Assembly (NCBI GenBank): GCA_013306675.1
Contig: JABLUY010000052.1
Coordinates: 1-64,000, forward strand
DNA: 64,000 bases
Origin: Thraustochytrium sp. TN22
Lineage: Eukaryota; Sar; Bigyra; Thraustochytrida; Thraustochytriidae
Direction: 5' to 3'
Below the pieces are notes generated by a model that did no database searches, was not told the DNA's origin, and saw nothing but the letters and a program-made list of their open reading frames with translations. A program made the position numbers and the translations under genes. This document shows, piece by piece, positions 6,084 to 37,518 of the stretch (positions are counted from its first letter, which is position 1; each line of letters opens with the position of its first letter).

Positions 6084-7874
6084 TCAAGGCTTCGCCACGG
6101 GACCGGGATAGTGGATGGTGAGCTGGTGAATGGTCTCGTCGCGGTCGCGCACCTGGGCCTGGAGAGCAGCAATCTGCGGCTCGAGGAGACGAGCCTGGCG
6201 TAGAGCTGCAAGAGCGCGCTCCGAGGTGCGCTCGGCACGGTCGCGATCGTCGCGCAGCGCGGCGTTGGCCTCGACAAGGCGAGCGACCTGGCGCTGCAGC
6301 GCAAAGGCGTCGGCGGGCGGCTCGCCCGTCTTGGTCTGAAGGAGTTGCTCGCGCAGACCGGTCACCTCGAGGACGGCGTCCTGGCGCAGGGCCTCGGTGC
6401 GCGAGAGCTTGGCGCGCAGATCCGCGAGCTGCTCCGCGCACTGCGTGCGCACGGCGTCGGCCTCGGCATGCACGCGGGCCACGGCCTGCTCGGCCGTAAA
6501 AGCGCGGTTCTCGGCCTGTTGCAGCTTGGAGCGCAGCGAGCCCGTGGCGTGCCGCAGCGTGTCTTCGGCGTCCTCCACGCTGCGGTCCTTCTCCCGCAGT
6601 GCGGTCTCGCGCGCACCCACCTGGCGCTGCAGGAGCTCCAGCTGCAGCTTGCACTGGTGCCAGCCCTCACGCGCGGTGCGGTGCGCTTCGCGCTCGCGCT
6701 CCAAATTGGCCGCCAGCTCGCGCGTCTGCTCGCGCTGCGACCGCGTCGCGGCGTGCGCCTGCTCCGCGAGCTGGATCTCCGCCTGCTCCTTGGCGCGCCG
6801 CAGCTGCACGTTTTCCTCCTCCAACAGCCGCCGGAGCCGCTCCGCGTCCTGCGCCACAGCCTGGCTGCGGTCCAGCTGTCGCCGCACGTGCTCTGCGCCG
6901 GCGCGCAGCTCGTCCACGCGCTCCTGCAACGCGCGGCACCGTTTCGCGAGGTGCTCCTCGCGCTCCTTGCGTTGCTCGAGTCCGCGCACTGTGAGCCCGA
7001 ACTTGCGGTTCTGCGACTCCAGCGCGCGGATCTCGCGCAAGAGGCCCTCGCGCTCCGCCTCAAAGCACCGCTGCACCGCCTTGGTCGCCTCGCCCAGCCG
7101 CAGCCGTCGCTGTGCGCGCTGGTTGGGTCCGCCGCTGCGCGCGAGTCGGTTTCCACCGACGCGCCCGCCAGCCCGCGCTGTTGCGCCGCCGGCCGGCGCG
7201 GACCGTGCCATTCCGTCGCGCACCTGCGAGCCCCACATCGCCGAGAAGCGCGCGGCTGCCATCTGCAGCTCCATGCTCACGTCTACGCTCCTGCGCAGAA
7301 GCAGGTTCACGTCACGGTCGCCTTCCGGCCCGCTCTCGCGCATCAGGGACTTGGACAGCGTCGCGCATGCCTGCACGCGGCCCAAAATCTCCTCCAGCTC
7401 ATCATCTGCGGCATCCATGTCCTCCGGGAAGGCCAGCTCCGTCATGCTCACGGCCTCGTCAAGCAGTTCCGAGCCGCTCAGTCGTGCTTGCTCCTTGTGC
7501 GCGTTCTGCTGCTCGTGTCGCTGTGGCGGGAGCGGCAGCAACGCCTGCTTCGACTCGGACAGCAGCAGCGACGAAGAAGTCTCGTCTTCCTCCTCTGGCG
7601 TACCCGGTCCTTGCTTGTCCCCTTGCGCGCGCTCCTCGAGCTTGGTCGCGGCGCTCGTGGTCGGCGCCTCGCGCACCTCGGTCAGTTCCAGCGGCGGCTC
7701 CTCCACCATGGCCGTGTCCGGCGGTTTGGCCTTGGTTTCAGGCTCCCTCGGCAATGCGCTTGGTGGCGCGCTCAGCGGCCTGCTCCCTTCCACCTCCTCC
7801 AGCTCCTCCAGCAACCCGAGGCCCACGAGCTCCGAGTCCTCCTCGAGCACCTCGCCGGCCTGCGCCGGCGCCAT
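6084..7874 (-). CDS. Long coiled-coil protein, function unknown
   Basis: I do not recognise this protein. From the Met at 7874 it has 596 residues. The first 250 or so are acidic, Pro/Ser-rich and probably disordered. Residues about 260-590 are a nearly continuous heptad coiled coil rich in Arg, Glu, Leu and Gln, for example LLREIRALESQNRKFGL. The frame stays open upstream to an ATG at 8489, but those extra 205 residues are Arg/Ala/Pro runs translated from the GC-rich promoter shared with the Pumilio gene. The protein-like sequence begins at MAPAQAGEVLEEDSELVG, so I chose 7874. Such proteins are often structural, cytoskeletal or centrosomal, but nothing here picks one role. It is divergent from the Pumilio gene. 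Confidence 0.7.
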   Translation of the reverse strand: MAPAQAGEVLEEDSELVGLGLLEELEEVEGSRPLSAPPSALPREPETKAKPPDTAMVEEPPLELTEVREAPTTSAATKLEERAQGDKQGPGTPEEEDETSSSLLLSESKQALLPLPPQRHEQQNAHKEQARLSGSELLDEAVSMTELAFPEDMDAADDELEEILGRVQACATLSKSLMRESGPEGDRDVNLLLRRSVDVSMELQMAAARFSAMWGSQVRDGMARSAPAGGATARAGGRVGGNRLARSGGPNQRAQRRLRLGEATKAVQRCFEAEREGLLREIRALESQNRKFGLTVRGLEQRKEREEHLAKRCRALQERVDELRAGAEHVRRQLDRSQAVAQDAERLRRLLEEENVQLRRAKEQAEIQLAEQAHAATRSQREQTRELAANLEREREAHRTAREGWHQCKLQLELLQRQVGARETALREKDRSVEDAEDTLRHATGSLRSKLQQAENRAFTAEQAVARVHAEADAVRTQCAEQLADLRAKLSRTEALRQDAVLEVTGLREQLLQTKTGEPPADAFALQRQVARLVEANAALRDDRDRAERTSERALAALRQARLLEPQIAALQAQVRDRDETIHQLTIHYPGPVAKP

Positions 7875-16328: not shown

Positions 16329-19300
16329 ATGAGCCGCGAGGCCTCAGCATCGGCGGGCGCCGTCGTGAACGCCGTGCGACGCACGCTCGTTGGCGAGGAG
16401 GATGGGGCCCTCGCGGAGGGCGAGGCTGGCGCGCCCGAGAGCAGCGGTCGCGGCCGAATCGACGGCAGCACGGGCGTCGGCGGCCGCGCGGCTGGCGCGA
16501 GCGCGGCGCGACGACGCTCGCGCGGGAGGCAGCACTTTATGCCGGCCATGTTCGTCTGCTCGGCGCATCTCGTGCTGGTGCCCGCACGCCTAGCCTTTGT
16601 GGCGCCGAAGGCTGAGACGTACCCCGCGGGGGCGCTAGCTGCCTGGATGGTCCTTGAGCTGCTCGTGCTTGACGCCGTGACAGCCAGGGACCTTTGGGTG
16701 CGGTACCGTGACAGCTGGGTCGGCGCTCGACGTCACCGCCTCGCGATCGCGGTGAACTGCGTAGCTAGCCTCCCTCTGCTCGAGTTCACTTGTGCTCTCG
16801 CTGGTCTTGCTCGGGGCGCGGGCGAGGGGCACGTAGTTGCGACCGTCTTCCAGATGTGGTCCCTGAGCCGGGCCGCGAAGGCGCTGCAGCTCATGCGTCT
16901 GCGCACTTTTCGGGCTGCGATCCGCGCGTGGACACCTGCCGAATCCAGGGCACGAAATCGCTGCATTCAGCTCGTGCTCGTCGGCGTCCTTAGCGCACAC
17001 ATTCTGGCCTGCGCATGGCAAGGCTTTGGGCCCTTCCTCTCGTGTGGCACATCCGGTGCCTCATGGAAAGCCGTCGAGGAGCGTGTGCCGTACTGCACAG
17101 CCGCAACTTGTCCACAGTGCCCGACTGTCGCGCGCCAGTACGTGCGCAGCCTCTACTGGGCCATCACCACCATCTCTACGGTTGGATACGGCGACATCGT
17201 TCCCATCAGCGCCGCAGAGACCGCCTTCGCGCTGTTCGCGCAGGTCACCGGTATTGCGCTCTACGTACTGCTGCTCTCCAGTGTGACCTCCTACCTCAGC
17301 AACATGGACGCAGCGCGCCTTGCGCACAATCGCAAGACGCGCCAGCTCACCAAGTTCTTTCACGCCTTTGGCGTCGCGGAACAGGTCGAAGCGCACGCAT
17401 TACGCTACTTTGACCTGGTTTGGCAGCAGTCCGACGGCTTCGAGGAAGGCGTGCTCTTGGAGCAGCTACCGCCCAAGCTGCGCTCCAACGTACTCTTTTC
17501 CCTGTACGGGAGCAGCATCCTGGACTGCCCGGTCTTCCGTGACGCGGACCTCTTCATGGTGCGCCTGCTCTTCCAGGAGGCTAGCATACTCACTTTCACG
17601 GCCGGCGAGCAGATCTTCCGCCGTGGTCAGGTCGCCGATGCCTTCTACGGTGTTTGCCACGGTCTTGTTTGGATGGATCACGATGATGTCACCAGCGCGG
17701 AGCGCATATTTCTCGAGGCCAAGCCCGGGCTCTTGCTCGGCCACAACGAGCTGCTCGCCCACCAAGCTTTCGTGGCGACGGCCGTTGTGCAGAGCCCTGG
17801 CCTGAGCGAGATCTTCAGGGTTCCTGGCGACCACTTTGAGCGCGTCGCGCAATTCTTCGTTCCTCTTGATCTCCTACACGATGCCTGCCAACTCGCCCTG
17901 GAGATGGGCGACTGGCGCTCGGCCTATCACATGAGGGGCAAGGCACGCCTCAGCCCGGAGGATGTCGACCGTATTCGGCTGCGCCTTGAGTTTGAGGCCA
18001 AGGAAGCCAGTCTCAAGCAAGAAGCCAGCTCCACGCCCGCCCAGCAATTGGCCACAGGTCAAGCGTGGGATGAAGTACCCCTCGGCGTGGAGGCTGCGAC
18101 GGCGCCAATAACGGTCGGAGCAGCAGCAGGAGCACGGACAACAGCAACACTGGCATCAACTACTTCCACAAACGCAACCCTAGCGGCATCCGCAGCGGCA
18201 GCAGAAGAAGATGGAGCAGCAGATGCAGATGCAGATGCAGATGTAAATGCAAATGTAGATGCAAGTGCAGATGCAGACGCAAATGCAATTGCGGATGCAG
18301 ATGCCTCGATCGCTGCAGGCCCATTTCTGATTTCACCGGTGTCGTTGCCAGCTCCGGGCTCAGGGCCTGCCGTGCAACACAAGTCAAGCGGTTCCTCCTC
18401 CTCCTCCTTCAACAACAACAACAACAACATCGACAACAACAACAACATCAACAACAACAACCCGCAGCTGCCGCCTCTGCTCACGTCCGCCCAATACGTC
18501 AACCCACTGGGCTCAAATGGCACGCACATCATGGCACAGCAGAACTCTTTCAAATTCAGCCGCGCACGGCCTGCGAGCCGGTCGAGGAGCAGCCCCAACA
18601 GCGCAGGGAGCCACTCACTGTCCATGGAGCCCACAGTACGCAGCCAACGAAGCCGCAATGCATCCTTGGCCATCGACGCGGTCGTGACAAGGACGCTCAC
18701 GCAGACCACCTATGCCGAGGCGGCTGAAGCGCAAGCTTTCGGGTCGCGCACGCAATTTAACTTCGCCTGGTCCATCCTCCGCTCTGTTGGTCTACTGTGG
18801 TACCTGCTCGACTACCCCATTGGACTGGGCTTCTACGATGCCGGATCCATTGCGCACATTCAGCGCATGCTCACGACAGCCTACACGGTGGATGGCTTCT
18901 TTTTCATTGATTGGCTCTTTCAGGCCGTGCACTTCTACCGCACGGCGGGCACGATGGCCCCGCGCACCTATTTCCTTGCGCGCCGATATCTGATCGTCGA
19001 CGGCCTCTGCCTGCTGCCACTGGACCTGTTTGTTATTGTCTTCGCCGGTCGATCCATTTCGTGGGCAGCCTGGTCGCAGGCTCGCGCCATCCGATGCTGC
19101 AAGCTCCTCCGCTCGGCGTCTTACGAGCGAAACATCTTCGGCCATCTGCGTCATCATGGTATCCGCGTGGACCCTGGCAAGCGAGGCTCCATCCGGCTGG
19201 CCCTAGTCACCGTCCTTGTCTGCGTCTGGCTCGCGGCTTTTTGGGCCATCTTCACCAAACCGCGCATGGAGAGCTCCGGCATGGGTGCTTGGGCCGCGAA

Positions 19301-22300
19301 CGCTTCCCTTGCCGCCACGGCCGATGTGGCCATGCGCAGTCTGTACTGGGCCGTCATGACACTCACAACCATTGGCTATGGCGACGTGACCGCGTACACC
19401 ACAGCGGAGAGCCTTTTCTCCATCTTTGCCGTGATCCTCGCGTCCCTCGTCGTCTACCCAATTATCGTTGCCTTCATCTCCGTCATGGAGGGCGAGCCGT
19501 GCGAGGCGGGCAAAGTCGCGCGGCCCTCTGTCACGACACTGCCGCCGCGAGCCATGCTTTTGGAGCGCGCCAGGGCCAGCAAGCTGCTCGCCGGCGTTGA
19601 CTGTATTCAGGGAAACCTGCGCGCCTACTTCAACCACGTGGAGGAGCAGGACTTCGACCCGAGCGAGATCCTCGCGGATCTGCCACCTTGGCTCGCTCGC
19701 AAGGTTGCCTATGATCTCTACGGCGCAGTCTTGCGCGGCACCGCCAACTGTGAGCCGGTCGCAGCACAGAAGCGCCGCGCGCGCGTCGCGCCGCAGAAGT
19801 CGGCGCCGGCGGTTGGTGGAAACAAGCTCTTCAAAACCACCAACCCTGCGCTTCTTGCAGAGATCTGCGTGCGTCTTCGCGTCGAGTTCGGAACCGAGAG
19901 GACGACGCTCTTCAGCGCGGGTCAGGAGGCCGTTGCTGCCTACTTCCTCATGGACGGCCTCGTGCAGGCCTCTGATCCCAGCGGTTCGGGTCTTGGCGGA
20001 CCAGGCTCATACTTTGGCTTCGAGGACATTGTCATCCGCAGACCAACCACCGGCATCGTTACGGTGCTGGAGCCGTCCATCTTCCTCGTGATCTCTGCAA
20101 CCGACCTGCGCGCCGCGCTCGCCTTGTTCCCAGAAGACGCCGCAACGCTCGAGGCAACGTGCAGGCCACGCAGACTCTCGCGCAAGGCGAGCGATCTCTC
20201 CCGTGCCTTTACGAGCTCCTTGGGCGGGTCCACCAATGCGGGCACCGGTGCGTCCTCTCAGCTTGGGCCAGACGGCAAGAAGATAGCCCGTCAGGCGCAT
20301 GAGGCACCGCCCATGCCCGCCGGGACGCAGCATCGCCGCTGCAGCGCAGCCAGCATCAACTTTCAAGCCAGCATCTTCGCGCACTATTCACGGCGCGAGC
20401 GCGAGCGCGTCATACTGCCTCTTACGCCGGCGCGGCGCGCGCTAGACCTCGCGTCCACCATCGTCGCGGCGATTGTGCACCTGCTCATCCCTCTTGGCGT
20501 CGCCACCGTAGCCGAAGCGCACTGCTCGCTGCACGACTCGCAAGGCTGGATTGTCACGCTTCTCGTCCTGAATGGGCTCGGTGACCTTTATGCGCTCTTT
20601 GACATGATCATGCATGCCTTCTTCTATGCGTTGCGCGAAGACAACGTGCTCATCATCGACGCCTGGGCCATCTGCCGCCGCTATGTGGGCAGCCACAAGA
20701 TGATAATTGACGCCGCTGCGACGTTCCCACTGGACTGGCTCTACATGCTCTTTGCCGGGCCCTCGCGTCGTCTGGATGTGGCCGTTCTGCTGCGCCTTGT
20801 CAAGCTCGTTCGCGTTCTCGAAGGAAACCGACGTCTGCAACACATCGACCAACTCATGAACTACCTCCAACTCAAGCAAGCGCACATTCAGCTCGGCCGC
20901 CTCCTGCTCATTCTCGCGCTCTTCGCGCACTGGCTCACCTGCGTGTGGATGCGCTTCGCCAACGCCTCTTTGCGCGGAGACAGCTGGGCCGACGCGGACT
21001 GTGTGCTCACGGGCACCTGCTTTACGGGCGCGGGCATGGCCGCCCCTGCCGCATCCGGCTCGGTCTCTGCGGTCTGCGGCCGCTTCCCGGCAGGTCGCCT
21101 TTACCTGCGCTCCCTCTACTGGGCACTCGTCACACTTAATACGGTGGGCTTTGGCGATATCGTGGCGCGGACGCGCAGCGAGACGGCCTTTGTCGTCCTC
21201 GTCATGCTGCTCGGCGCCGCCATGTATGCGCTTCTCATTGCGATTCTGGCGAGCATCGTGGCGAGCCTCGACCAGACAGCCACCACCTTCAAGCTGTGGC
21301 GCGAGAATCTCCAGCGCTTCGTTTCGGCGCGCAACCTGTCGCGCGGCATGCGCGACAAGATCCTCTCCTACGCCGACCAGATGTGGCGCACGCAGCGCGG
21401 GGGCAGCCTGCATGAGGTCGTCAATTTCTTGCCACGCTACGTGCAAGGCGACCTGCTGCGCGCATTGGACAACGGTCAGCTCGGCAAGGCGCCGATCTTT
21501 GCGGACGTCCCCCCGCCGTTCTTGGATGCCCTCCTCATGCGCCTGCGTCCCGTCATGGTTCCGCCCGGAGACTTCATCTACCGCGCTGAGCAGCCCTCCA
21601 CTACGCTGTATGTGCTCTGCTCTGGCGAAGTGGCGCTGCTCGCGGAAGACGGCAAGACCGTGGTGTCCAAGAGCACGGACCATGGCGTCTTCGGCTACGA
21701 TGAGTTCCTCGACCGCATCCGCATGCGCACATCGCTGGTCGCGCAGACCTTTGTGACCACGCTCGAGCTGCGACATGAGGACTTGTGCTCCGCGCTAGGG
21801 CACTTCCCCAACGCCGAGGCCTCACTCTGGCGCAACATGGAGGCAATCAGGTCCACGTCCACAACGCTCAAGCTGGCCAACAATCTCAAGAGTCGCAAGG
21901 TTACCAAAATGATGACGGCGGAGGCCTGGACGCCGCCCAAGGCCGTGCGTCCCGCCGTCGCTCCAGACGTCAAGTGGCGCGTCGCATGGGAGATCGCGAT
22001 GCTTGCCCTTTCCATCTACGTTCTCTTCGCTGTGCCCTTTCGCATTGGAATCCTCGCCAGCCCCACCACCTTCACCTTTTCTGGCTCGCTGCTGGGCTGG
22101 GCGGTTGTTGATTCGCTTCTGGTCAACGGCTTGAGTCTCATGGATATGCGCCTGCACGCGATGCGTTTCGCCTTCTTCAGGGAGGGCTTTGTTGTCAGCG
22201 AGCACGCCGAAATCTGGGCGCACTACCGGTCAACCTGGCTCATCATTGACCTCATTGCCTCTTTGCCGTGGGACTGGCTCGTGGTGATTCTGGCGGCTGC

Positions 22301-23564
22301 GATCGGCGTCGAGAATGCTTTTCAGTGGTGGAGCCTCTCGCGCCTGCCCAACGTTCTGCGTCTTCAGCGCGTGCGAACCTACTACTACCCGCTGATCGAC
22401 TTTTACCTGCACAGCATCAAGGTCAAGGTCAGCGCAGCCGTGCTGCGCCTCGCCTTTAAGCTCGCTGGGGTCATTCTGCTCGCGCACTGGGTCGCCTGCG
22501 CCTGGTATGCGCTCGCGTCGGCGGAAGGCATTACGGTCTCCTGGGCGCATGCAGAGCCTGCCAGTCTTGACCAGAGCGCGCCCGACGGCAGTGTTGGCAT
22601 GGCCTATCTGCGTGCGCTGTACTGGTCCTCGACGGTCATCACTACGGTCGGCTACGGCGACATTGTGCCCAAAACAATCCCGGAGACCTTCTTCGCGATT
22701 CTCGTGTTGGTCATCAGTCTGTACATGTACGTCGACATTGTCGCCAACGTTACCACGCTCATCTCCAACACGGACTCAGCCGACGCTCGCCAAAAGACTG
22801 TGCGCGAGGTCGTGCGTCGCAATCTGCGCGCCAAGAACACGCCGCTTCCCGTGCTTCGCACCGTAGACGAGTTCCTTGACTCTAGCACGCTTCTCGCGCG
22901 CCACGGTATCTCAGAGCCGGACCTCTTGCGCACGCTGCCGCGATCTCTTCAGGCCGAGATTCTTACACGCATGCTGCGCGAGCCGCTCAGCACTGCACCC
23001 TGCTTCAAGGGCCTTCCGTCCTCTCTGCATGTTGAGATCGCCTGCGCGATGCGCCATCGCACCCTGGTGACCGGAGATACTCTCGGCCATGAGGCGTCCA
23101 TCCCGATGGAGCTCGGCCTTCACATGGCAGGCACACTTAAGCTTATCGCCCTCGGGGCCGACCCCGTTCTAGAGCCGCTCGGTGGCGCCGTTTCAAGGGC
23201 AGCGTCTAGCACCACGATTCTCGAGGAGATGCCCTGCAAGTCGAAGTCCGAGGACGACCTCATGGCTGAAGCTCCTGCCTTGGCACTCAACAGTCAGAAC
23301 GCCCTAGACGAGTGCGTCTTCAAGCTCGTCGCGCCGGGCCACCTCGTTGGTGTCGAGCTCATCGTGAATGCCTCGCTGGCGGCTACCCCGATTGCCTTTG
23401 GTGTTGTGGAGCTGTATGCTCTTGCGCGACATGAGTTTGAGGCCATCCAGCATGCCCTTGCGGACGCCGTGCGGACCCAACTGCAGCAGCAGGCCTTTGA
23501 GCAAGTGCTTGCGCTCCAGTGCCGTGAAGGCTTTCAGAGCTTTCTCCAGAATGCAATGCAGTGA
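16329..23564 (+). CDS. Four-unit concatenated CNG/EAG-type potassium channel
   Basis: One chain of 2,411 residues carrying four complete channel units, predicted to fold as a pseudotetramer in a membrane. Unit order, numbered from the ATG at 16329: I about 65-590, II 790-1310, III 1355-1860, IV 1870-2411. Each has S1-S6, a K+ filter, a C-linker and a cyclic-nucleotide-binding-like fold. The filters are TVGYGD (G286), TIGYGD (G1016), TVGFGD (G1607) and TVGYGD (G2108), so the pore should be K+ selective. Units I and IV have S4-like segments with spaced Arg, for example WSLSRAAKALQLMRLRTF. C-linkers such as KLTKFFHAFG-like RQLTKFFHAFGVAEQVEAH are typical. The I-II linker holds an Ala/Asp dipeptide repeat and an Asn run. 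The frame is open upstream to 16164, but only through a TTG codon; the first in-frame ATG is 16329. The closest known architecture is the animal sperm CNGK channel. Ligand gating is doubtful because all four binding cassettes look degenerate. Confidence 0.92.
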   Translation: MSREASASAGAVVNAVRRTLVGEEDGALAEGEAGAPESSGRGRIDGSTGVGGRAAGASAARRRSRGRQHFMPAMFVCSAHLVLVPARLAFVAPKAETYPAGALAAWMVLELLVLDAVTARDLWVRYRDSWVGARRHRLAIAVNCVASLPLLEFTCALAGLARGAGEGHVVATVFQMWSLSRAAKALQLMRLRTFRAAIRAWTPAESRARNRCIQLVLVGVLSAHILACAWQGFGPFLSCGTSGASWKAVEERVPYCTAATCPQCPTVARQYVRSLYWAITTISTVGYGDIVPISAAETAFALFAQVTGIALYVLLLSSVTSYLSNMDAARLAHNRKTRQLTKFFHAFGVAEQVEAHALRYFDLVWQQSDGFEEGVLLEQLPPKLRSNVLFSLYGSSILDCPVFRDADLFMVRLLFQEASILTFTAGEQIFRRGQVADAFYGVCHGLVWMDHDDVTSAERIFLEAKPGLLLGHNELLAHQAFVATAVVQSPGLSEIFRVPGDHFERVAQFFVPLDLLHDACQLALEMGDWRSAYHMRGKARLSPEDVDRIRLRLEFEAKEASLKQEASSTPAQQLATGQAWDEVPLGVEAATAPITVGAAAGARTTATLASTTSTNATLAASAAAAEEDGAADADADADVNANVDASADADANAIADADASIAAGPFLISPVSLPAPGSGPAVQHKSSGSSSSSFNNNNNNIDNNNNINNNNPQLPPLLTSAQYVNPLGSNGTHIMAQQNSFKFSRARPASRSRSSPNSAGSHSLSMEPTVRSQRSRNASLAIDAVVTRTLTQTTYAEAAEAQAFGSRTQFNFAWSILRSVGLLWYLLDYPIGLGFYDAGSIAHIQRMLTTAYTVDGFFFIDWLFQAVHFYRTAGTMAPRTYFLARRYLIVDGLCLLPLDLFVIVFAGRSISWAAWSQARAIRCCKLLRSASYERNIFGHLRHHGIRVDPGKRGSIRLALVTVLVCVWLAAFWAIFTKPRMESSGMGAWAANASLAATADVAMRSLYWAVMTLTTIGYGDVTAYTTAESLFSIFAVILASLVVYPIIVAFISVMEGEPCEAGKVARPSVTTLPPRAMLLERARASKLLAGVDCIQGNLRAYFNHVEEQDFDPSEILADLPPWLARKVAYDLYGAVLRGTANCEPVAAQKRRARVAPQKSAPAVGGNKLFKTTNPALLAEICVRLRVEFGTERTTLFSAGQEAVAAYFLMDGLVQASDPSGSGLGGPGSYFGFEDIVIRRPTTGIVTVLEPSIFLVISATDLRAALALFPEDAATLEATCRPRRLSRKASDLSRAFTSSLGGSTNAGTGASSQLGPDGKKIARQAHEAPPMPAGTQHRRCSAASINFQASIFAHYSRRERERVILPLTPARRALDLASTIVAAIVHLLIPLGVATVAEAHCSLHDSQGWIVTLLVLNGLGDLYALFDMIMHAFFYALREDNVLIIDAWAICRRYVGSHKMIIDAAATFPLDWLYMLFAGPSRRLDVAVLLRLVKLVRVLEGNRRLQHIDQLMNYLQLKQAHIQLGRLLLILALFAHWLTCVWMRFANASLRGDSWADADCVLTGTCFTGAGMAAPAASGSVSAVCGRFPAGRLYLRSLYWALVTLNTVGFGDIVARTRSETAFVVLVMLLGAAMYALLIAILASIVASLDQTATTFKLWRENLQRFVSARNLSRGMRDKILSYADQMWRTQRGGSLHEVVNFLPRYVQGDLLRALDNGQLGKAPIFADVPPPFLDALLMRLRPVMVPPGDFIYRAEQPSTTLYVLCSGEVALLAEDGKTVVSKSTDHGVFGYDEFLDRIRMRTSLVAQTFVTTLELRHEDLCSALGHFPNAEASLWRNMEAIRSTSTTLKLANNLKSRKVTKMMTAEAWTPPKAVRPAVAPDVKWRVAWEIAMLALSIYVLFAVPFRIGILASPTTFTFSGSLLGWAVVDSLLVNGLSLMDMRLHAMRFAFFREGFVVSEHAEIWAHYRSTWLIIDLIASLPWDWLVVILAAAIGVENAFQWWSLSRLPNVLRLQRVRTYYYPLIDFYLHSIKVKVSAAVLRLAFKLAGVILLAHWVACAWYALASAEGITVSWAHAEPASLDQSAPDGSVGMAYLRALYWSSTVITTVGYGDIVPKTIPETFFAILVLVISLYMYVDIVANVTTLISNTDSADARQKTVREVVRRNLRAKNTPLPVLRTVDEFLDSSTLLARHGISEPDLLRTLPRSLQAEILTRMLREPLSTAPCFKGLPSSLHVEIACAMRHRTLVTGDTLGHEASIPMELGLHMAGTLKLIALGADPVLEPLGGAVSRAASSTTILEEMPCKSKSEDDLMAEAPALALNSQNALDECVFKLVAPGHLVGVELIVNASLAATPIAFGVVELYALARHEFEAIQHALADAVRTQLQQQAFEQVLALQCREGFQSFLQNAMQ
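18217..18305 (+). repeat. Hexanucleotide repeat (GCAGAT/GCAAAT) coding Ala-Asp/Ala-Asn
   Basis: A degenerate six-base repeat within the linker between channel units I and II, read as alternating Ala with Asp or Asn. The frame is preserved throughout, so it is translated. Confidence 0.9.
18409..18462 (+). repeat. (CAA/AAC)n run coding polyasparagine
   Basis: Asn-rich run in the linker of the four-unit channel, interrupted by two Ile-containing units. It is AT-rich compared with its surroundings. Confidence 0.9.
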
Positions 23565-23570
23565 GGACAG

Positions 23571-23626
<56 letters not shown>

Positions 23627-23627
23627 C
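23571..23627. repeat. (CAGG)n tetranucleotide microsatellite
   Basis: About fourteen CAGG units begin six bases after the TGA of the channel gene. They occupy much of the 208-bp convergent gap with the SET-domain gene and so lie in the 3' UTR of the channel transcript. Confidence 0.95.
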
Positions 23628-26698: not shown

Positions 26699-29600
26699 AT
26701 GCTCTCTGGCGTCGTCAAGTCGCTCGTGAACAGGTTCTTGAACGAGTACGTGGAGGGCGAGTTCGACGTGGGGATCAGCCTGTTCGGCAAGCATGCCGTG
26801 GACCTGGAGCACCTGGAGCTCAAGTGCAAGACGCTGAATGAACTGATCTTCCGCGAGAACCTGCCGCTGCGGCTGCAGCGCGTCTACGTGGGCCACGTCC
26901 TCGTGGACATCCCGTTCTCGCACCTGGGCTCGCGACCCGTGCGCGTCTCCGTGAAGAATGTGCTGGCTGTAGTCAACATGCACCTGGAGGGCGCGTGGGA
27001 TGCGCCTGCGGCGGAGGCCGACCTCCGGGAGGCCGTGCGCCAGGCCATTCTCTCGCTGCTGGACCAACGGCACCCGGGCACCAAAGAGTCCTCGCTCGCG
27101 GAGAGCCCTGGGCTATACTTCTCCAGCGAGGGTATGCTCAACCGGACCATTACGCGCATCGTGGACAACCTCGAGGTGAACCTCGAGAACATCTCCGTCC
27201 GCGTCGAGGCGCCCTGCGTGGAGGATCAGGACCTCCAGCTTAACGCACCGACGCACGGGCCGGCCACGCCGCTCTACCACGGCGGCTTTTCGCCGACCTG
27301 GGACCCGCGCGTACAGGACGTGTCGGTGCTCGACCTGACCATCGCGGCGGCGCGACTCTTCACCACGGACGCCAACTGGGAGCGGCACTTCGACGACGAC
27401 TGCGACTACATCGTGTACAAGGTGCTCCAGATCGGTGCCCTTGAGCTCACCTTCACCGCGCGTTGCCGCGCCATGCAGGCCCTTGCCGGCGCGCAGGACT
27501 CGGCACGCACGTACTATGAACGCTACAGGGAGCTCCGTGCCGGTGCCGGGGAGGTGCGCCCGCTGCTCAGCCCAGCCAATATCGAGTTGCGCGCCAAGCT
27601 CAATACCGCCTTCATGGTGGGCGCCTCCGAGCCGCACCGCGCCGACGTCTACATCAAGGCCACGCCGCTCGTCCTCGCTGTTGGTGAGGACGAGCTTGTC
27701 TTCCTCACACAGCTCCTCGCGCACCTCAGCCGCCACGGGGAGTGGCTGGAGCGCCTCCAGACGCGCCAGGCGCGCCAGGACGCTGCTTGGGTGAGCGCGC
27801 GCCATGACGAGACCGAGATCGACCCCATCGAGGAGTATCGCGCACTCTGCGCCAAGCGCGCCCGCATTTTGACGCGCGTCGACGCGGCCGAGGAGCGTGC
27901 GCGCCGCCTGCAGGGCCTGCAGGCCTCCGATGCGCTCGTGCATCTGGAGACGCACCTTCCACTGGAGCAAGTGCAGGCCGCCATTGACGATGCTGCGGAG
28001 CAGGCGCATGAGACGCGCGACTTCCGCATCCAGCCCTTCCGCTCTGACGAGTCGTCCTCGCTTGAGGCGTACCAGCACCGACAGCACCACGAGGCCGTAG
28101 TCTCCGGGAGCGGCTGGCAGCACGAGCTCGCGAGCTCGCTGGAGAGCGAGCTCGCCGGCGAGGAGACGTCTCGCGGCCGCCTGGTCAAACCGACGCTGGA
28201 CGCCGATGAGATCGAAATCACCTTCGCGGAGGGCAGTCTTGGCCTCGTTCTGGACCACAACTTCCAAAACGACTCCGTCGTTGTGGCCGGTTGCGTCGCA
28301 GGCTCGCAAGCCGCCCGTACGCGCCTCATTGAACAGGGCATGATCATCACCGCCATCGCCAACTATGACATCTCCGGCCTCACCGTGGAGGAGACGCTGG
28401 AACGCCTGCGAACCGGGCGGCGCCCTCTCCGCGTGCGCTTCAAGGGTTCGCTCAAGGCCGCGCGCGCCGCGGCTAACTTCGTTCGAGGCAGCGTTGTCAA
28501 CTTCGTGAGGGCTGCCGTGGCCCTCGACGCAATCGACCTGACGCTCTTCTCCGGTGCAGAGGACAGCACGCTCTGCATTGCGCGTCTGATCGGCGTGGCG
28601 CTCTCCGTCGATGCCAGGTCCGCCGGCTCTGCCGTCGGTCCGCTGGAGCGCCTCGCCCACATCGTCACGCTCGACGCCGGACTCGGCGTCGTGCACGCCG
28701 ACCTCATCTCCGCCTTGCCCTCATCCGTGGCGGGCGACGCGACCTCCCCCATCCACCTCTTTAGCAGCGCGGGCGAGTTCGACGCCTCGGGCGTGCGCGT
28801 GACGGCACTTCGCGACGCGCAGGCGCCTGAGGACCTTCGCTTTGATGTCAACTGGAACCCTTTTGACCGCAAACCTGCAGCCGCTCCCTCGTTGGAGCCC
28901 ACAGGGGAGACCGCGCGGCCAAGGAGCCCAGTACAGAGCCCTCCCACAACTACGGAGGACCCGGCGGCGATCTCCGTTGCAGCGCTCCTCGACAACGAGC
29001 GCTGGGTGTTTCACTGCTTCGCCGCCTCAATGCTCCTTTGGGACCGCCGACGCTTGCGGTTCCGTAAGGGAGCGGCGGCCGTGCCAGACTCCTCCTCGTC
29101 CTCCTCGTCGTTGTCGGACTCCTTTGATACTCTCTTTCGGGCCATGCACCTCGCAGAGGACTGGTCAGCGCATGCTTCAAGCGCCTGGACGCAGCTCATT
29201 TCCTTTGCCGACGTGGGCCACCTCGAGCTCGTGGCCACAGATGCAGTCCTCCCCTTGCTTGAGCACAAGATGCGCCTGTCTCGCCTGGCGCACCTCGTGC
29301 GCACAGGGCTCAAGACCCCATTTGTCCGCATTCCGCGCCTCCGCATCACAATGCCAGACCCAAACGATGCCGACGACAATGGCCCGGTCGGCATGGCCAG
29401 TACAGCGCGCCCACTTACGCATGGGCAAGCGCAAGCGCAAGCGCAAGCACAGGCACATGCACAGGCACAAGCACCACAGGCACAAGCACCACAGGCACAA
29501 GTGCAAGCGCAAGCTTCGCCGTCGCCCGAGCCGCAATCGGCTGGCCCCTCGGGCGAGGACACGGTCCCTGTGCCGGAGCCAAAGGACCGCGTCCGGGAGC

Positions 29601-32600
29601 CCACGGATGAGCCACACACCAGGCGTCAGTGCCAGACCGATGTCGCACTCACCACCATCGTGGTGGACGGGACCATTGGCGGCCTCGAGGTTTGTTTGCA
29701 GGAAAACGTGGTGCGCAAGCTGATGCAATTGGGTGCGTCCCTTTCCATCAAGACGACTCCGATGCAAGGCCATCCGGTTAGCACCGCCCAGGCAGCGCCG
29801 GTTGATTCCACCTCCGCCGCCGCCGCCGCTTCTGCCTCCTCAGATGCGCCCGGCTGGACGCGCTTTGAGGTGAACCTAGAGATGGGCACGGTCCGGGCCA
29901 TCTTACCTGCCGATGCCATCGCAGGCGCCAGCGATACGCTTTACCGTGCCGCGCTCGTCGTAGGTCCCACCTCGATCATGACCCGAGACCGCCTCGCCAG
30001 CGTTTACGACGCAGGGAGCGTCCGTAGCGCCGCTTTCGAGGGCGACCGGCCGCCACCGGTCGCGCGACACCACCTCGCGCATCTGCGCGAGGACCTCGAC
30101 GAGCGGGACTCTGTATTCGTTCGCGTCAAACGCATCCGGGCAGTGGTGTTCAAGCATTCAACGCCGCGCAGTGTCGAACCCCGCGTTGTGGCGCCGCTTG
30201 GGCGGGCGTTCGCATCGAGTTCCTCGGACGAGAACATTGAGGAGGGCGACGAGGAGGATGACGAAGAGCGCGGCTACTTTGACGCACAGCAGTCGCTGCG
30301 TCACCTGACGGCGGCATCTGAAGACTCCGTCAGAGACCCCGCCGGTTCGGTGTCCAGTCTGGACGAAGACGACTACCAGGACGCCGAGACCGCCGAGGAG
30401 GGCGACCCGCCACCAGAGCTGCCTGCGACAAGCAATGCGCTTAGGGCGGTGGCGGCCGGCACCCTGCCCCGTCGCCAAGTCAGCTGGACCTCGACGTCTC
30501 AAGGCGGGACCGGCGGCTCCATCTCAAGTGGCCTCTCCGCCGCTGCAAATCCGCTGGCGGGCATGGAGCTCCTGGAGGCGAGCGTTGATGCGCTGCGCAT
30601 CAATTTCTCCGGGGCGCCCTACAGTCTCTACCCACTTGAGGTCGGCCTTGTGGCCAGCCTCGGCAATCGCGGCCGCAGCCCGGCCACCCTGCACGTCACG
30701 GAAGCACATGCCAGCGTCCTGCTCGAGCTCCTCGCCGTGGTGGGTCGCTGCGTGGAGAACCTCACGGATGCCGAGGCAAAGGGCGCCGCGGGCGGGGGCG
30801 TGCCGCCGACGCAGCCGGCCCCAGCCAGCAAGACAAGCATCGACGTTGACGCAGAACGCGATGCGGAGCTGGACAAGCTCACAGGATGCTTTGAGGGCGC
30901 GCGTAACGAGGAGGAGGCCATGGGCAAGATGCACCGCGGTCTGTACGATGTCCTGCACGTGGTCCTGGGCACGATCGACTCGGAAGGCCTCGAGGTCGGG
31001 CCGCTCGAGGCCCGCGCCCTGTTTGAGTGCATCTGCGACTTCCTCGGGCCGCGTCTCGCGCAGGCGCTCGCGGAGCATGTTGGCCCAGACTGGGTGCTCC
31101 GCTTCGGGCCGACCGAGACCGTGCGCCGATGCCTGCGCTTCCTCTTTGGAGACACGGAGGAGGTGCGCAGGCTGCTTGAGGCTCCCCCTTTCTTTGGAGG
31201 GGACACCTCCTTCGGGCGTGGGCGCAGCTCCTCTCGGCAGCGGTCCTCAAGCCACGCCTCCTCGCGCCGGCACCTGAGCCCGGTGCTGCGTGCCGACACC
31301 GCGGGTCGTGACGCTCAAGCACAGCTCCCTGCCGATCCCAAGACGTGGATCACGCTTCGCCTAGACGTGCATGTGCCAGAGTTCACGGTGGAGCTTTTTT
31401 CCGCGCTGCGCCTCTCCTTGACCAAGGTCGTGACTAGCTGCGTCACGAGCACGAGTGACAGCGTCTCGCGGATCGCCCTGCACGTGGGCACGGTCCAGCT
31501 CGAAAACCTCTGGAGCCGGGAGACTATAATCAAGCCGGTGCGCGAACTGGACGTGGGAGGCGCGGGTGCCGTCGGGGACTACTGCGTGTCAGTCGAGCTA
31601 GTGTACATCTCGGAGGAGCTCTCCCGCAGCCTGCTTCGAAGGGGTCAAGGGCGGGCCGCGGATCCGGACAACGACGAGCTCGACAGCGTGGTCGGGGACG
31701 TTGGTTTCTATGACGGCATGTTTTCGGAGGACGGCTCGGTGAGCGAGATGCACGACGGCGGCTCACTGTCGTCCTCGGAGGAATCGGACGGGTCTGAGGT
31801 GATGCAGCACCACGGCCGCATCGACCCGCGCGAGGCGGAAGTCAACGAGGAGGGCGGCGACGAGGACGTGGACGCCGCCCATGCGCGCCGACTAAAGCCT
31901 CTGCATGAGCGGACGCTCGCACGTACTGACCTGGCAGAGGCCTCGCTCCGAAGCGTCATGGATGCCAGCTTCCGCGCCGGTGACCGCGTGCAGCGCGTGG
32001 AGGAGCACCTCATCACCGAGTGGGAGGCGGCAAACCACTTGCGGCACGACCCGGATGCGGATCGCCTTCTGGGTTGCGGCGGGAGGCTGTGGACCGCCAA
32101 GGACCATGTGGGCCCGTTGCGCGAGCGAGTTGACATCATGCTCCGCAAGGCGCACACCATGCTGCCGGACGCCGGTCGCCTCGGCCAGGAGCGCAGCGGG
32201 CGCCGGCTGCGGCGCCAGCCCGAGCACCTCACCAGCCCGTGGCGTGCCGCCCGCGCGAAGACGCTCCGCATCTCACTCCGGGTACCGGAGCTGGACGAAA
32301 TCGGGAGCCCTTTCACACAGCTGGACGAGGACCAGCAGGAGCGCCTGTATGCGGACCTGAAGTCTGTCTTTGGCGTGCTCGTGGCCGCCTCCGACGCACG
32401 GGAGGATGCGCTGCCCAGCATCTCGGCATCCGTTGTGCTCCGTAACCTGTCGGTGGAGCTCTCCGAGCGTCTGGCGCTCACCGGCCTTGCTCTCAAGGAC
32501 AAGCTGCAGCACCTTCTTGGCGAGGATGCTGTTCCTGGCACGGAGCTGGACACGGACGGCGCCGGCGCACCGGGCGACCGAAGCTCGCCGACTGGGTCGG

Positions 32601-35600
32601 CGACCGCCGAGCCGGCGGCTGCTGCGACGCTCCTCCGAAGCGTGGAGGTGGCGGCGGAGCTTCAGCACTTCGTGGTGCGTGTCAAGGCAAGCCGGGACCG
32701 GGCCAACGTGGCGCGCGACGACGGGCCGCCTGGCTTGCGCCCGCTCGATTCCTATGCTCCCTCTCGTACGGGCAGCCTCACAGAGCTGGGGTCCGTGCAG
32801 GGCCGTATGTCCATGCTGGATCAGGACAGCGTCATCTCCGGCAATGAGGTGGCGAAGAAATCCTTCAAGGAGATCTTCATCGTGCTCATCGTGAACGCAA
32901 CAACGGTCTACGTGGCTCGCCAGTTCGTCGAGACTTGCGAGGTGAAGATCTCACGCACCACCGTCTCGGTCACGTACGATCGTTTGACCACATTGCTGAA
33001 GCGGCGTCGTGATGAGCGCAGGTGGGCTGCGCAGGACTCCACGCCTACCTCTACTGTAACCCACGCCATCGTCAAGCCGTGGAACGCCTCCCTTGAATAC
33101 ACGCTGCGTCGTAGTATGACGACCTCGTCGAACATCTCTCGCGTTGTTTCCGGGTCCGTCGGCAGTCTGCAAGTCTCGCTCTGGACCATCGATGTGAGCG
33201 TCCTGCAAAAGATTGCCACCAACCTCGGCGAGATTGGGGAGTCGCTCGCGCGCGCCGCCGGCGCCGACTCGGACGGCGGGGTGATCGACGATGAAGAAGA
33301 TGACAAGAAGACGAGCGCCAGCAGGAGGCGCTCCGACGATAAGGGTCGCGCGGGCGAGCCGGCTGCAAGAGCGGATCCCGCCCTGTCCTCCCCGGCGCCC
33401 GCAGCGGACCTGCAGGACGACGACGAGGATCTGGAGGACCATCGACGCTTTGGCCTCGGCAGCCCGGTCATCCGCGCAGCCCTGCGGTGCCAGGTGCTCA
33501 CGAACGCGTCCGTGCTGCAGATGGCGCTCGACAAGTCGATCATTGTCACCGACACCACGGCCTTTGGCCGAGTGCTGGAAGCGAGTTTGCTCGCGGCGCA
33601 GGCGTTGCAGCGCGATGGTGACACCTATGCGCAGGCGGGCGGGTCCGTGCTGGCCACCTATGACGCGCTGGCGGTCACCGTCGCGCACTCGGGTGCCCAC
33701 TTCATTACCGAGCAGATCCCGCTCGAGATGTACGGCAATCGCACCAGCGAGGACCCTCTTGCACGCGAGGAGGACAAGGGGGATTGCGAGGACCGAAAGT
33801 ATGAGGCGGGGGACGGGAACGAGGACTTCGACCCAGAAGAGATCCGCGATGGGCTCGGCTTTCTGGCCGTCCCGCCTGCTCGTGCCGGCGTCAAGGATCG
33901 GCTCCACGACCGCGTGCGGCTCAACATGGGCGGCTTCGGCGTGGAGGTCGTCCAGGAGGTGCGCCGCACGGCAACCCAGGTGGAGACCTTTCTGCCGGTG
34001 CTGAGATTCGGTGCAGACAAGATCGAGCTCCGCGGCGAGTCTTTCTCGCAGTACGCCAAGGACATCGTCCTGGCCACCTTTATCGATATGGAGGCGCGAT
34101 TCTACAACAGGCGCATTGGCTCCTGGGAGTACATCATGGAGCCTTGGCTCCGCACCAAGGCGAGCGTGTGCATCTCGGAGCGAGACCAAAGCATGACGGC
34201 TGAGGTGGACGCCCTGAACAGGCTCAACGTGAACATCTCCGAGGACCTTCTGGCGCTGCTGCTGCGTCTGCAGATGGATTTGGACCAGGCGCTCAAGACC
34301 GTGAGCCGAGACACGGAAGCGGCACAGCAGGCTCTGGCGGGCGCTGCTGCGGCCGGTCGCGACTCCGATGACGAGATGCGCAGTGTCTCCACTCTTGGCC
34401 CCTCGTCAATGGCCACCGGCAAGACCTCGGCGCGGCGCCCCTGGGGTCGCGTCCTGGCCGGCTCGCGTGCAATTTCCCGTTCGCGGCGGCCCATGCGCCG
34501 CATCAAACAGCGCGTCTCGCGCGAGGTCGACCACTGGCTGGTGAACAACACCGGCGTCAGCATCACGTTGCACGACCTGTACCAGATCGGCTACGACTAC
34601 CGCGGGACGCTTACGGTCTCTTACCGCGACGGATGGTATCTGCCCTCGCACGAGCGCTGGCAGGGTCGGCCGGCGCTGCGGCTGACGCTTCTGCCGCTGC
34701 GCAACGGCGGTAGCGTGGGCAACCTGGATGCCACAGAGCAGGACCTCGGCCGCTCTCGAGCGGCTGGCCACACTGGCGCGAGCGTGGCGCGCAAGCGCGA
34801 CGCATATCAGGAGGGCGACCAGTACATCCTTCCATACGAAGGCAACAAAACCGTGGATGTGCCGCAGCTCCTGGTGGAGGTCAAGGACGAGAACGGTGCA
34901 TACTACCAGACCACCATCGACCTCGTGGCCTACATTCTCTTCCCCAGCCGGGGTTCCTCGGAGTGGTTCCCGCTGCACACGGACAGTGCCAAATTTGAGC
35001 AGGCGCGTGGCGCCGAGGTGATGCTCTCCATCGGCTTTGACTTGCTGGAGGACGATGACCACATGGCAGGCCGGCGCGGGACGCGGGACCCCTGGGCAAA
35101 GGAAGGCCACCTCAACGACGGCGCACCGACCGCCGCGGGGCGTGAGTCCGCCATTGAGCCTTTCCGCGTTGCCACAGGCGGTCTGGTGCCGATGCGCTTT
35201 CACAGTCTACCCAAAAAGCACTGGTACAAGAACATCAACCGGCACGAGATCAACAAGAGCATCTCCAACAAACAGTTCACCAAGCTACGGGCCGTGGCGG
35301 TGGATTTCTCCCAGGGTGTCGATTTCGCCGCGCCGGAGAAGCCGCTCCTGATGATCTTCCCGGTGGACGAATCCGGCGAGACGATGCTGACGACGCGCGC
35401 CGTATCGCATGCGCGGAGCGGACCGAAGCGCGAGGTGACACCCCTCGCGACGCCCCTGTACGAGGCCGTGGAGGAGGCCAAGGCGAGCGATTTATCGCAG
35501 AGGGACGCGGATCGCAGCATTCACGGGGAGGTTTTTGGGACCAACGGGAATCTGACCCTCTTTCGCAAATCGCGCAAGGCGCAGGGCGAAGACCTGGCCT

Positions 35601-37458
35601 CGCGCAACGCCGACCAGAGCTTTGCCTTCAATGTGCTCGCCGTCAACGCCATGCGCGACCGCGGGCGCCGCGTTGTCTTCCTCGAGTCGCCGCTGAAGCT
35701 GGTGAATTCGATCGACATCGCCCTTGAGGTGATGATCTGCGAGAGGTCCGCGGTGGCAGACCAAGTGGAGCGCAAGGACATTCAACCTTCGCTGCAGCCC
35801 ATCACCATGGAGCACGCTGACGTGCGCTCCAGCGGCAACGAGCTGCGGACCTTCGGCTTGGGCTGGTCGTCCCTCTTCGACCGCAGAAACGCCACAAAGT
35901 GGGTTGACGGCGGTCACAGCGCGGACTCCCCGGCGAGCACGTCCTTTCTCGAGTGGCGCTTCCCCAGCGGTATCGAGGTGTGCTCGTACCGCATCACGCC
36001 GGCCATGCTGCAGGTGACGCGCACCGCGCACGCATCCTCGGAAGAAGTTGGCGAGGTCAACGCAGCGCGTCTCGGCCTGGACCCGGTCAGCTGCAGATTC
36101 TACGGGCGCAGCTCAGGCAAGCCTCAGCGCCAGGCCGCAGCAGGAGACGGGCTCGGCACCGACGGCGCCGCAGGCCCTGCCGGTTTCGAGGCAGGCACGC
36201 AGGCAGGTGCAGAGGGGGGCCAGGAGCCCGGAAGCCCGCTCCCCGAGCCACCGGCGGCCGCGTATGCCGGGGCGCAAGCGGTGGACAGAGAAGAAGGCCC
36301 CGAGCCAGAGTGGATCGAGCTCGACGCGCGCGAGCAGATTGACTTCGGCGCGGACCGCGGCCCGCGCGACTTCTTCCTCGCACAGATGGCCAAGTTCGAC
36401 CAGTACCGCCTTGAGCTGGACACCGAGACTCCATTTACAGATCTTGGCACGCCCGTGGAGGAAAGCGGTGGCAGCCGGAGAGGGGTTGGCCCGAGCAGGT
36501 CGTCTGGCAGCAGCCCGCGGCGACTCATGCAGCGTCGCGCAGAGCGGGGCAGTCTCGCGTGGGCGAGCCGAGGCCCGAACGGCAAGGCGCCCGTGGCTGT
36601 CTCTGGCGTTGAGCTCTTTTGTGAAAAGCCGCACTACGAGTCAGCACGGGAAAGCAGTCAATCCGAGGTGCCGGCCACCCCGAACTCCGAGCCGTGGAAG
36701 TGCGAGGTGTGCGAGGAGATCAACGACGCCGGGGTTCTCCGTTGTGGCCTGTGCAACGGGACTCGTCCCGTCCCGCGCAACGACTCGTCCGATGACGAGA
36801 GCCAGGCTGATGATGACCAGGGTCCAAGCCTCCTCGGAAAGGACCCGGAGGCGGAGACGGGCCGTAGAAGGCGTGCTCGCGAGGTTCGCGATCGGGCGCG
36901 CCGAAGTGAGCAAATTCGGTCGAAAGGAGGTGGCACCGGCGGCTCCGTCGGCAGCAGCATGGGCACCTTGGCCGGTAGCAGCGGCAGCATGAGCAACAAG
37001 CGCCAGGCCAATGCATCCGCGAACGAGGACAACGACTTTGCACGGAGCATGCGGCTCGAGGCCCTCGCCACTCGTCTCCGTGTCGCCAGCGCTTCGGTGC
37101 AGCAAACAGGCGGCGGTAGTGGTGGCGGTGGCGGCGGTGGTGGTGGTGGTGGTGGTGGTGGCGGCGGCGGCGGCGCAACGACTCGCTTTCGCTCGTACGA
37201 CGTGGAGATCACGCCTTCGGAGCTCGTGCTACGCGGTACGCAGCGGGGGTTGGAGCGCGGTACAAGCATGCTGCGGCGCAATTTCAACACAAGCAAGGCC
37301 CGGATGTCGCGCCGGCGCACTAGCAGTTCTAACAGCAGCGAGGGTCTCACGAATACGGCGCGCGTCGCTTCTTCTGAGACCATTCACAGCGGCCCGCAGC
37401 GCAGACCCGCATCTGATCAGTCGCGGCAGCAACAGCAACAGCGGGACCAGCGGAATTT

Positions 37459-37518
<60 letters not shown>

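Follow-up and report, generated by a model that had tools for sequence, protein, structure and literature searches.

Does a single thraustochytrid gene encode all four subunits of a potassium channel in one chain, and if so, how did such a gene arise? The window, by which we mean the whole 64,000-nucleotide stretch analysed here, contains an open reading frame at 16329..23564 on the forward strand, which we label C401. A preliminary description had read it as four 6TM/pore/C-linker/CNBD units fused in one polypeptide. We found that one frame of 2411 codons runs without interruption from the first in-frame ATG downstream of the previous stop, and that its four units are recognised by Pfam and by predicted fold (Table 1). 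Codon usage, modelled on a training set of seven neighbouring genes, favoured this frame in all 24 windows of 300 bp. The signal extended through the low-complexity linker that separates unit 1 from unit 2, with its GCAGAT and CAA arrays, and stopped where the frame stops. Pfam Ion_trans matched the whole protein with an E-value of 3.5e-44, and chance origin of the channel similarity is excluded. An Rfam scan of the window gave no match.

Ion_trans and Ion_trans_2 were found in all four units and cNMP_binding in three, with the limits of unit 1 set from hmmsearch envelopes. Unit 2, the most divergent of the four, had a cNMP_binding score slightly below the 27.5-bit cut-off, and unit 4, scanned separately, had no cNMP_binding match. 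Not every S1-S4 helix was resolved by hydropathy in each unit. Among the best 60 of 237 sequence matches in the PDB, unit 1 matched the prokaryotic CNG channel 5v4s and AKT1, unit 3 matched SthK and CNGA1, and unit 4 matched hERG; no CNGK chain was among these 60. AlphaFold models of units 2 and 4, biased towards the CNG fold because their input alignments included 11 bacterial CNG-type channels, both consisted of helices followed by a C-terminal beta-roll (mean pLDDT 68.1 and pTM 0.46 for unit 2; 73.8 and 0.52 for unit 4). Foldseek aligned the unit 4 model along its length with CNGA1, HCN, AKT1 and EAG subunits (best E-value 4e-22) and the unit 2 model with CNG, HCN and plant K+ channel subunits (best E-value 3e-16), over about 480-570 columns and with modest TM-scores of about 0.4-0.6. 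Judged by its predicted fold, unit 4 appears to carry a CNBD as well. A CNBD would then follow each repeat, three recognised by Pfam (one just under the cut-off) and the fourth by modelling.

Long divergence of the units had also been proposed, on the ground that their filters are unequally spaced. Unequal spacing alone does not speak for age, since the low-complexity linker accounts for some of the added length between filters 1 and 2. Low identity of the other units to unit 3 (22-26%) nevertheless supports long divergence.

Table 1. Features of C401 and of related loci in the genome (window positions unless a locus or contig is named).
Feature	Position	Strand	Basis or remark
Four-repeat CNBD-type K+ channel gene C401	16329..23564	+	2411 aa, stop included
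Unit 1, residues 60-530	16506..17918	+	Ion_trans, Ion_trans_2, cNMP_binding 40.0 bits
Filter GYGD unit 1, residues 286-289	17184..17195	+	sequence
CNBD unit 1, cassette LGHNELL, without Glu, without Arg	17592..17849	+	Pfam and cassette reading
Low-complexity linker, units 1-2	17919..18680	+	in frame, coding signal in frame
Unit 2, residues 785-1315	18681..20273	+	cNMP_binding 27.3 bits; modelled beta-roll
Filter GYGD unit 2, residues 1016-1019	19374..19385	+	sequence
CNBD unit 2, cassette FGFEDIV, without Glu, without Arg at usual place	19899..20120	+	
Unit 3, residues 1320-1862	20286..21914	+	cNMP_binding 42.2 bits; PDB SthK, CNGA1
Filter GFGD unit 3, residues 1607-1610	21147..21158	+	sequence
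CNBD unit 3, cassette Arg kept (MRTS), Tyr for Glu	21558..21785	+	
Inter-repeat junction motif LKLANNLKSRKVTKMMTAEA, residues 1847-1866	21867..21926	+	24.1 bits
Unit 4, residues 1863-2411	21915..23561	+	Ion_trans; PDB best hERG; CNBD in model only
Filter GYGD unit 4, residues 2108-2111	22650..22661	+	sequence
Unit 4 C-terminal part, predicted CNBD beta-roll and disordered insert	23019..23558	+	model residues 369-548
Candidate RGS-start remnant, residues 2388-2410	23490..23558	+	matrix of five RGS starts
C417 four-repeat channel	L009 527-8341	-	altered filters units 1, 3
C111 channel frame with terminal RGS	L013 945-6185; C111:352505-352849	-	Pfam E 3.1e-13
C310 two-repeat channel	L016 2132-7276	-	1714 aa
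CNBD-RGS frames	C453:143957-145471, C233:99463-100566, C409:132694-133671, C38:68170-69705		

The filters lie at the residues previously claimed for them, and all four K+ filters are kept (TVGYGD, TIGYGD, TVGFGD and TVGYGD in units 1 to 4). The earlier proposal of a four-in-one K+ channel with a CNGK-like layout thus stands on the units, the filters and the CNBDs alike. A single chain would fold its four 6TM-CNBD units about one pore, as in CNGK, with each unit supplying a T[VI]G[YF]GD filter. Since the filter is canonical in each unit, the channel should, on its sequence, be K+-selective.

The phosphate cassette of CNBDs normally has a Glu and an Arg, and these hold cAMP or cGMP. In C401, the Glu is kept in none of the four cassettes (H, F, Y and V stand in its place) and the Arg in unit 3 only. 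Read in this way, C401 is probably a pseudo-tetrameric K+ channel without cyclic-nucleotide gating, its CNBDs having lost the residues that hold the ligand, save the Arg of unit 3. Because of this loss, voltage or another cytosolic signal would be its likeliest gate. The best candidate seems to be control by the voltage sensors through a C-linker/CNBD ring with no nucleotide bound, as in KCNH; another cytosolic signal, as in pH-gated zebrafish CNGK, may be the alternative; and a residual one-site response could persist at CNBD3. In a report on CNGK (PMC4749565), the zebrafish channel has CNBDs yet is gated by pH, and cGMP opens the sea urchin channel at CNBD3. The architecture of C401, its filters, its paralogues and the loss of its site residues are observed; one-pore folding, K+ selectivity, gating and cell role are what we infer. 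We judge it fairly probable that C401 is a real, single pseudo-tetrameric K+ channel gene of a four-gene family, gated without cyclic nucleotide. Domain matches in the genome included 21 for guanylate/adenylate cyclase and 45 for RGS.

We searched the genome (37.9 Mb in 453 contigs) for pores and CNBDs, and then read the loci. There were three further four-repeat CNBD channel genes, C417, C445 and C111, and one two-repeat gene, C310. The C417 frame of 2604 aa holds four Ion_trans and five cNMP_binding stretches; that of C445, at 2823 aa, holds four Ion_trans_2 and two cNMP_binding matches. C111 occupies two overlapping frames of 943 and 1746 aa, with one and three pores, respectively, and its repeat 2 straddles both. 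From unit 1 to unit 4, the filters read TVGYGD, TVGYGD, TAGFGD and TVGFGN in C445, and TVGYGD, TTGFGD, AVGYGD and TAGFGN in C111. C417 has TVGLGD, TVGYGD, VVVIGD and SVGYGD, which are non-canonical in units 1 (GLGD) and 3 (VIGD), and keeps canonical cassettes with both Glu and Arg in units 2 and 3; its unit 2 is nearest in the PDB to SthK and CNGA3. Thus, C417 looks like a cyclic-nucleotide-binding member with altered filters in units 1 and 3, the reverse of C401.

The two-repeat gene has a different history. Its units resemble HCN1 in the PDB (E-value 5.2e-47 for unit 2) and are mutual sisters (100/98 in the 39-row tree described below) outside the four-repeat units, and C310 clearly arose separately from the four-repeat genes. 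As a step towards those genes it is unsupported, its sister units sitting among single-repeat channels.

Relations among the units were examined in two trees, one of 31 rows (the four-repeat units, 16 in all, the two of C310 and 13 single channels) and one of 39 rows, to which eight bacterial channels had been added. The bacterial rows came from 13 frames extracted from 80 of 311 relatives, each with one filter; 8 were used in trees and 11 in the structure alignments. Viral contigs supplied a further 20 listed loci. The trees were built without the Kv-like single channels C6, C353 and C33 and the split gene C158, and other channel loci also lay outside them (e.g., C440, C394, C45, C113, C385, C400, C70, C195, C396, C420, C126, C11, C448, C397 and C199). 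In the 39-row tree, the 16 four-repeat units formed one clade against the other 15 channel units of the genome and the bacterial channels (90/94, 88% of 200 bootstraps), on long branches, many with more than 1.5 changes per site, of which the tree program warns; it also gives this clade no star.

Within this clade, C445 and C111 paired unit by unit in both trees (90/87, 88/90, 99/97 and 96/94 for units 1 to 4 in the 39-row tree), and the two genes therefore had a common four-repeat ancestor. The units of C401 formed a weak clade, at 31/84 in the best 31-row tree and at 75/92 once the other four-repeat genes were removed. Unit-by-unit grouping of C401 with C445 and C111 did not appear in the trees and was not rejected (p-AU 0.24-0.36). 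A permutation test on similarity ranked the collinear order of C401 against C445 and C111 first of 24 in all five alignment settings, which are not independent, and this order was best in 188 of 300 bootstraps; against C445 alone it ranked third of 24. For C417, no unit-by-unit orthology with the other four-repeat genes was found, the best order being 1-4-3-2, and its units formed no clade once the others were removed (p-AU 0.24, 10% of bootstraps).

The sequence between repeats carries a further sign of kinship. C445 and C111 have a common motif, NL..xK[LV].K[MFL], between a CNBD and the next S1, and we trained a matrix on their four junctions between units 2 and 3 and units 3 and 4, holding out C401 and C417. 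The best place in C401 was its junction of units 3 and 4, at a score well above the maximum of 14.3 bits in 200 shuffles. The best place in C417 was its junction of units 1 and 2 (residues 499-518, 14.9 bits, shuffle maximum 14.7). Weaker matches lay at the junction of units 1 and 2 in C445 (953, 11.9 bits) and C111 (769, 8.8 bits). Among the controls, namely 16 single-channel frames and C310, C29 reached 12.9 bits outside a junction and the rest stayed below 9. The motif supports a likely descent of C401 with C445 and C111 from one four-repeat gene, and is a weak sign of kinship for C417.

A second shared feature lies behind unit 4. C111 has a Pfam RGS domain there in the same open frame, and C445 has a full-length RGS match below threshold (12.7 bits, E-value 0.18, cut-off 23.9). 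C401 had no Pfam match to RGS. A matrix of five RGS starts found its best place in C401 at the C-terminus, with a score reached by 52 of 500 shuffles of the whole protein and by 7 of 2000 shuffles of the last 60 residues. It is suggestive that C401 may end 23 residues into an RGS-like start.

Most likely, the four-repeat genes, or at least C401, C445 and C111, would go back to a single ancestral four-repeat gene within this lineage. As to how that ancestor arose, we lean slightly towards an independent fusion in thraustochytrids, in which a single-repeat CNBD gene was tandemly duplicated and fused and the four-repeat gene was then duplicated. The single clade of 16 units argues for this origin, as does C310, a two-repeat gene that arose on its own, and a survey describes other origins of two-repeat CNBD channels within SAR (PMC7576140). 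However, the tree sampled this genome and bacteria, and animal CNGK repeats might fall inside the 16-unit clade; these units may also be pulled together by long-branch attraction, and those of C417 form no clade when the other four-repeat genes are taken away.

Alternatively, C401 could be an orthologue of animal CNGK that predates the stramenopile-animal split (or was transferred) and was lost in other lineages, which we consider unlikely. The layouts are alike as two sources describe them (PMC7576140, PMC4749565), and the cassette Arg survives in CNBD3 of C401 only, the one site through which sea urchin CNGK works in the latter source. The canonical cassettes of C417 and the nearness of its unit 2 to SthK and CNGA3 agree with such descent as well. 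Yet the survey has four-repeat CNGK in Holozoa only (PMC7576140), and C401 was set beside CNGK by published description. Moreover, the published repeats pair 1-3 and 2-4, whereas between-protein pairs of units here split among 1-2/3-4, 1-3/2-4 and 1-4/2-3 in 168, 120 and 12 of 300 bootstraps.

Separate four-fold fusions giving rise to C401, to C417 and to C445/C111 are likewise doubtful. Units within C401 and within C417 are more alike than expected (mean residuals 0.15-0.21 and 0.13-0.18), the C401 units form a clade without the other four-repeat genes, and C417 is out of collinear order, all of which speaks for such fusions. Opposing this are the motif at the corresponding junction of C401, a gene kept out of the training, and its weaker match in C417, the collinear similarity of C401 with C445 and C111, and, suggestively, the RGS-like tail of C401. 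The weakest reading, that C401 is a pseudogene or several tandem genes read together, has next to no probability: long spurious frames are common in this GC-rich genome (53 ORFs of at least 250 aa), but the coding signal holds throughout, four canonical filters are kept, and an assembly join is very unlikely because three genes on other contigs share the layout; on these paralogues and the codon signal we reject a join of tandem genes as the source of C401.

Returning to independent fusion, a fuller version that we put forward tentatively is a thraustochytrid four-in-one K+ family with an RGS branch, in which the domain would be intact in C111, faded in C445 and cut in C401, and with C417 keeping its sites while two of its filters were altered. 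If true, the RGS-bearing channel would be a single protein that links K+ conductance to signalling by G-alpha.

The architecture of C401 is of a known kind, that of CNGK, now found in a lineage reported without it and in a family of four genes, one of which has an RGS domain. Like CNGK (tetraKCNG), as described in three sources (PMC4749565, PMC8835908, PMC7576140), C401 joins four 6TM units in one chain, has GYG/GFG filters and places a CNBD behind each unit. Unlike CNGK, compared by description rather than by sequence, its CNBDs are degenerate, it shares an inter-repeat motif within the family of its genome, its paralogue C111 has an RGS domain, and it belongs to a thraustochytrid. According to the survey (PMC7576140), metazoans and choanoflagellates have four-repeat CNGK, while oomycetes and dinoflagellates have CNBD channels of two repeats; it identified no tandem channels in labyrinthulomycetes, phaeophytes or diatoms. 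The survey data included a Hondaea sequence; it is plausible that thraustochytrid four-repeat channels were missed because the blastp queries were human and two-repeat channels. Three Ectocarpus genes have been likened to TetraKCNG, their repeat number unstated in the available text (PMC3879662). Our literature search, with most subscription journals and preprints outside it, found no other report of a four-repeat CNBD channel in stramenopiles and none in which a CNBD channel bears an RGS domain.

Other channels share parts of this plan. The two-repeat channels of SAR also have tandem 6TM-CNBD units but need two chains per pore, which is the layout of C310. KCNH (EAG/hERG), CNG, HCN and bacterial SthK/LliK-type channels have the architecture of a C401 unit but only one unit per chain. 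Four-domain Cav/Nav channels, of which the genome has similar frames (e.g., C87 and C432), likewise place four 6TM repeats in one chain. They differ in lacking CNBDs, in their Ca2+/Na+ filters and in belonging to a different branch (PMC7576140).

Four-repeat K+ channels have until now been regarded as a holozoan oddity linked to sperm signalling. A four-gene stramenopile family makes ancient origin versus repeated internal oligomerisation testable by a tree of units. It also provides tetramers that are asymmetric by nature, with filter decay and ligand-site decay falling on different units, and, in C111, a channel that carries its own RGS domain.

Several other loci were noted. Six bases past the C401 stop, a perfect GCAG array of 14.5 copies spans 23570-23627 of the window. 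Also on the forward strand of the window are a class C GPCR-like gene at 74-2743, with 7tm_3 and an ANF_receptor ligand region, and one open frame of 5492 aa at 26699-43177, which presumably encodes a VPS13-type protein. Elsewhere in the genome, the combination of CNBD and RGS recurs in frames with two or three CNBDs (Table 1), matched by their equal frame lengths in the searches for the two domains. On C37, two CNBD matches (7318-7608 and 92872-93162) that agree in score and in frame length but lie on opposite strands are possibly an inverted duplication. Finally, indirect support for the earlier view of the source as a stramenopile comes from C124:29160-32300 (reverse strand), where a single frame of 3044 codons holds ten PP-binding domains spaced 327 bp apart, nine of them scoring 41 bits, an array characteristic of the PUFA synthase of thraustochytrids.
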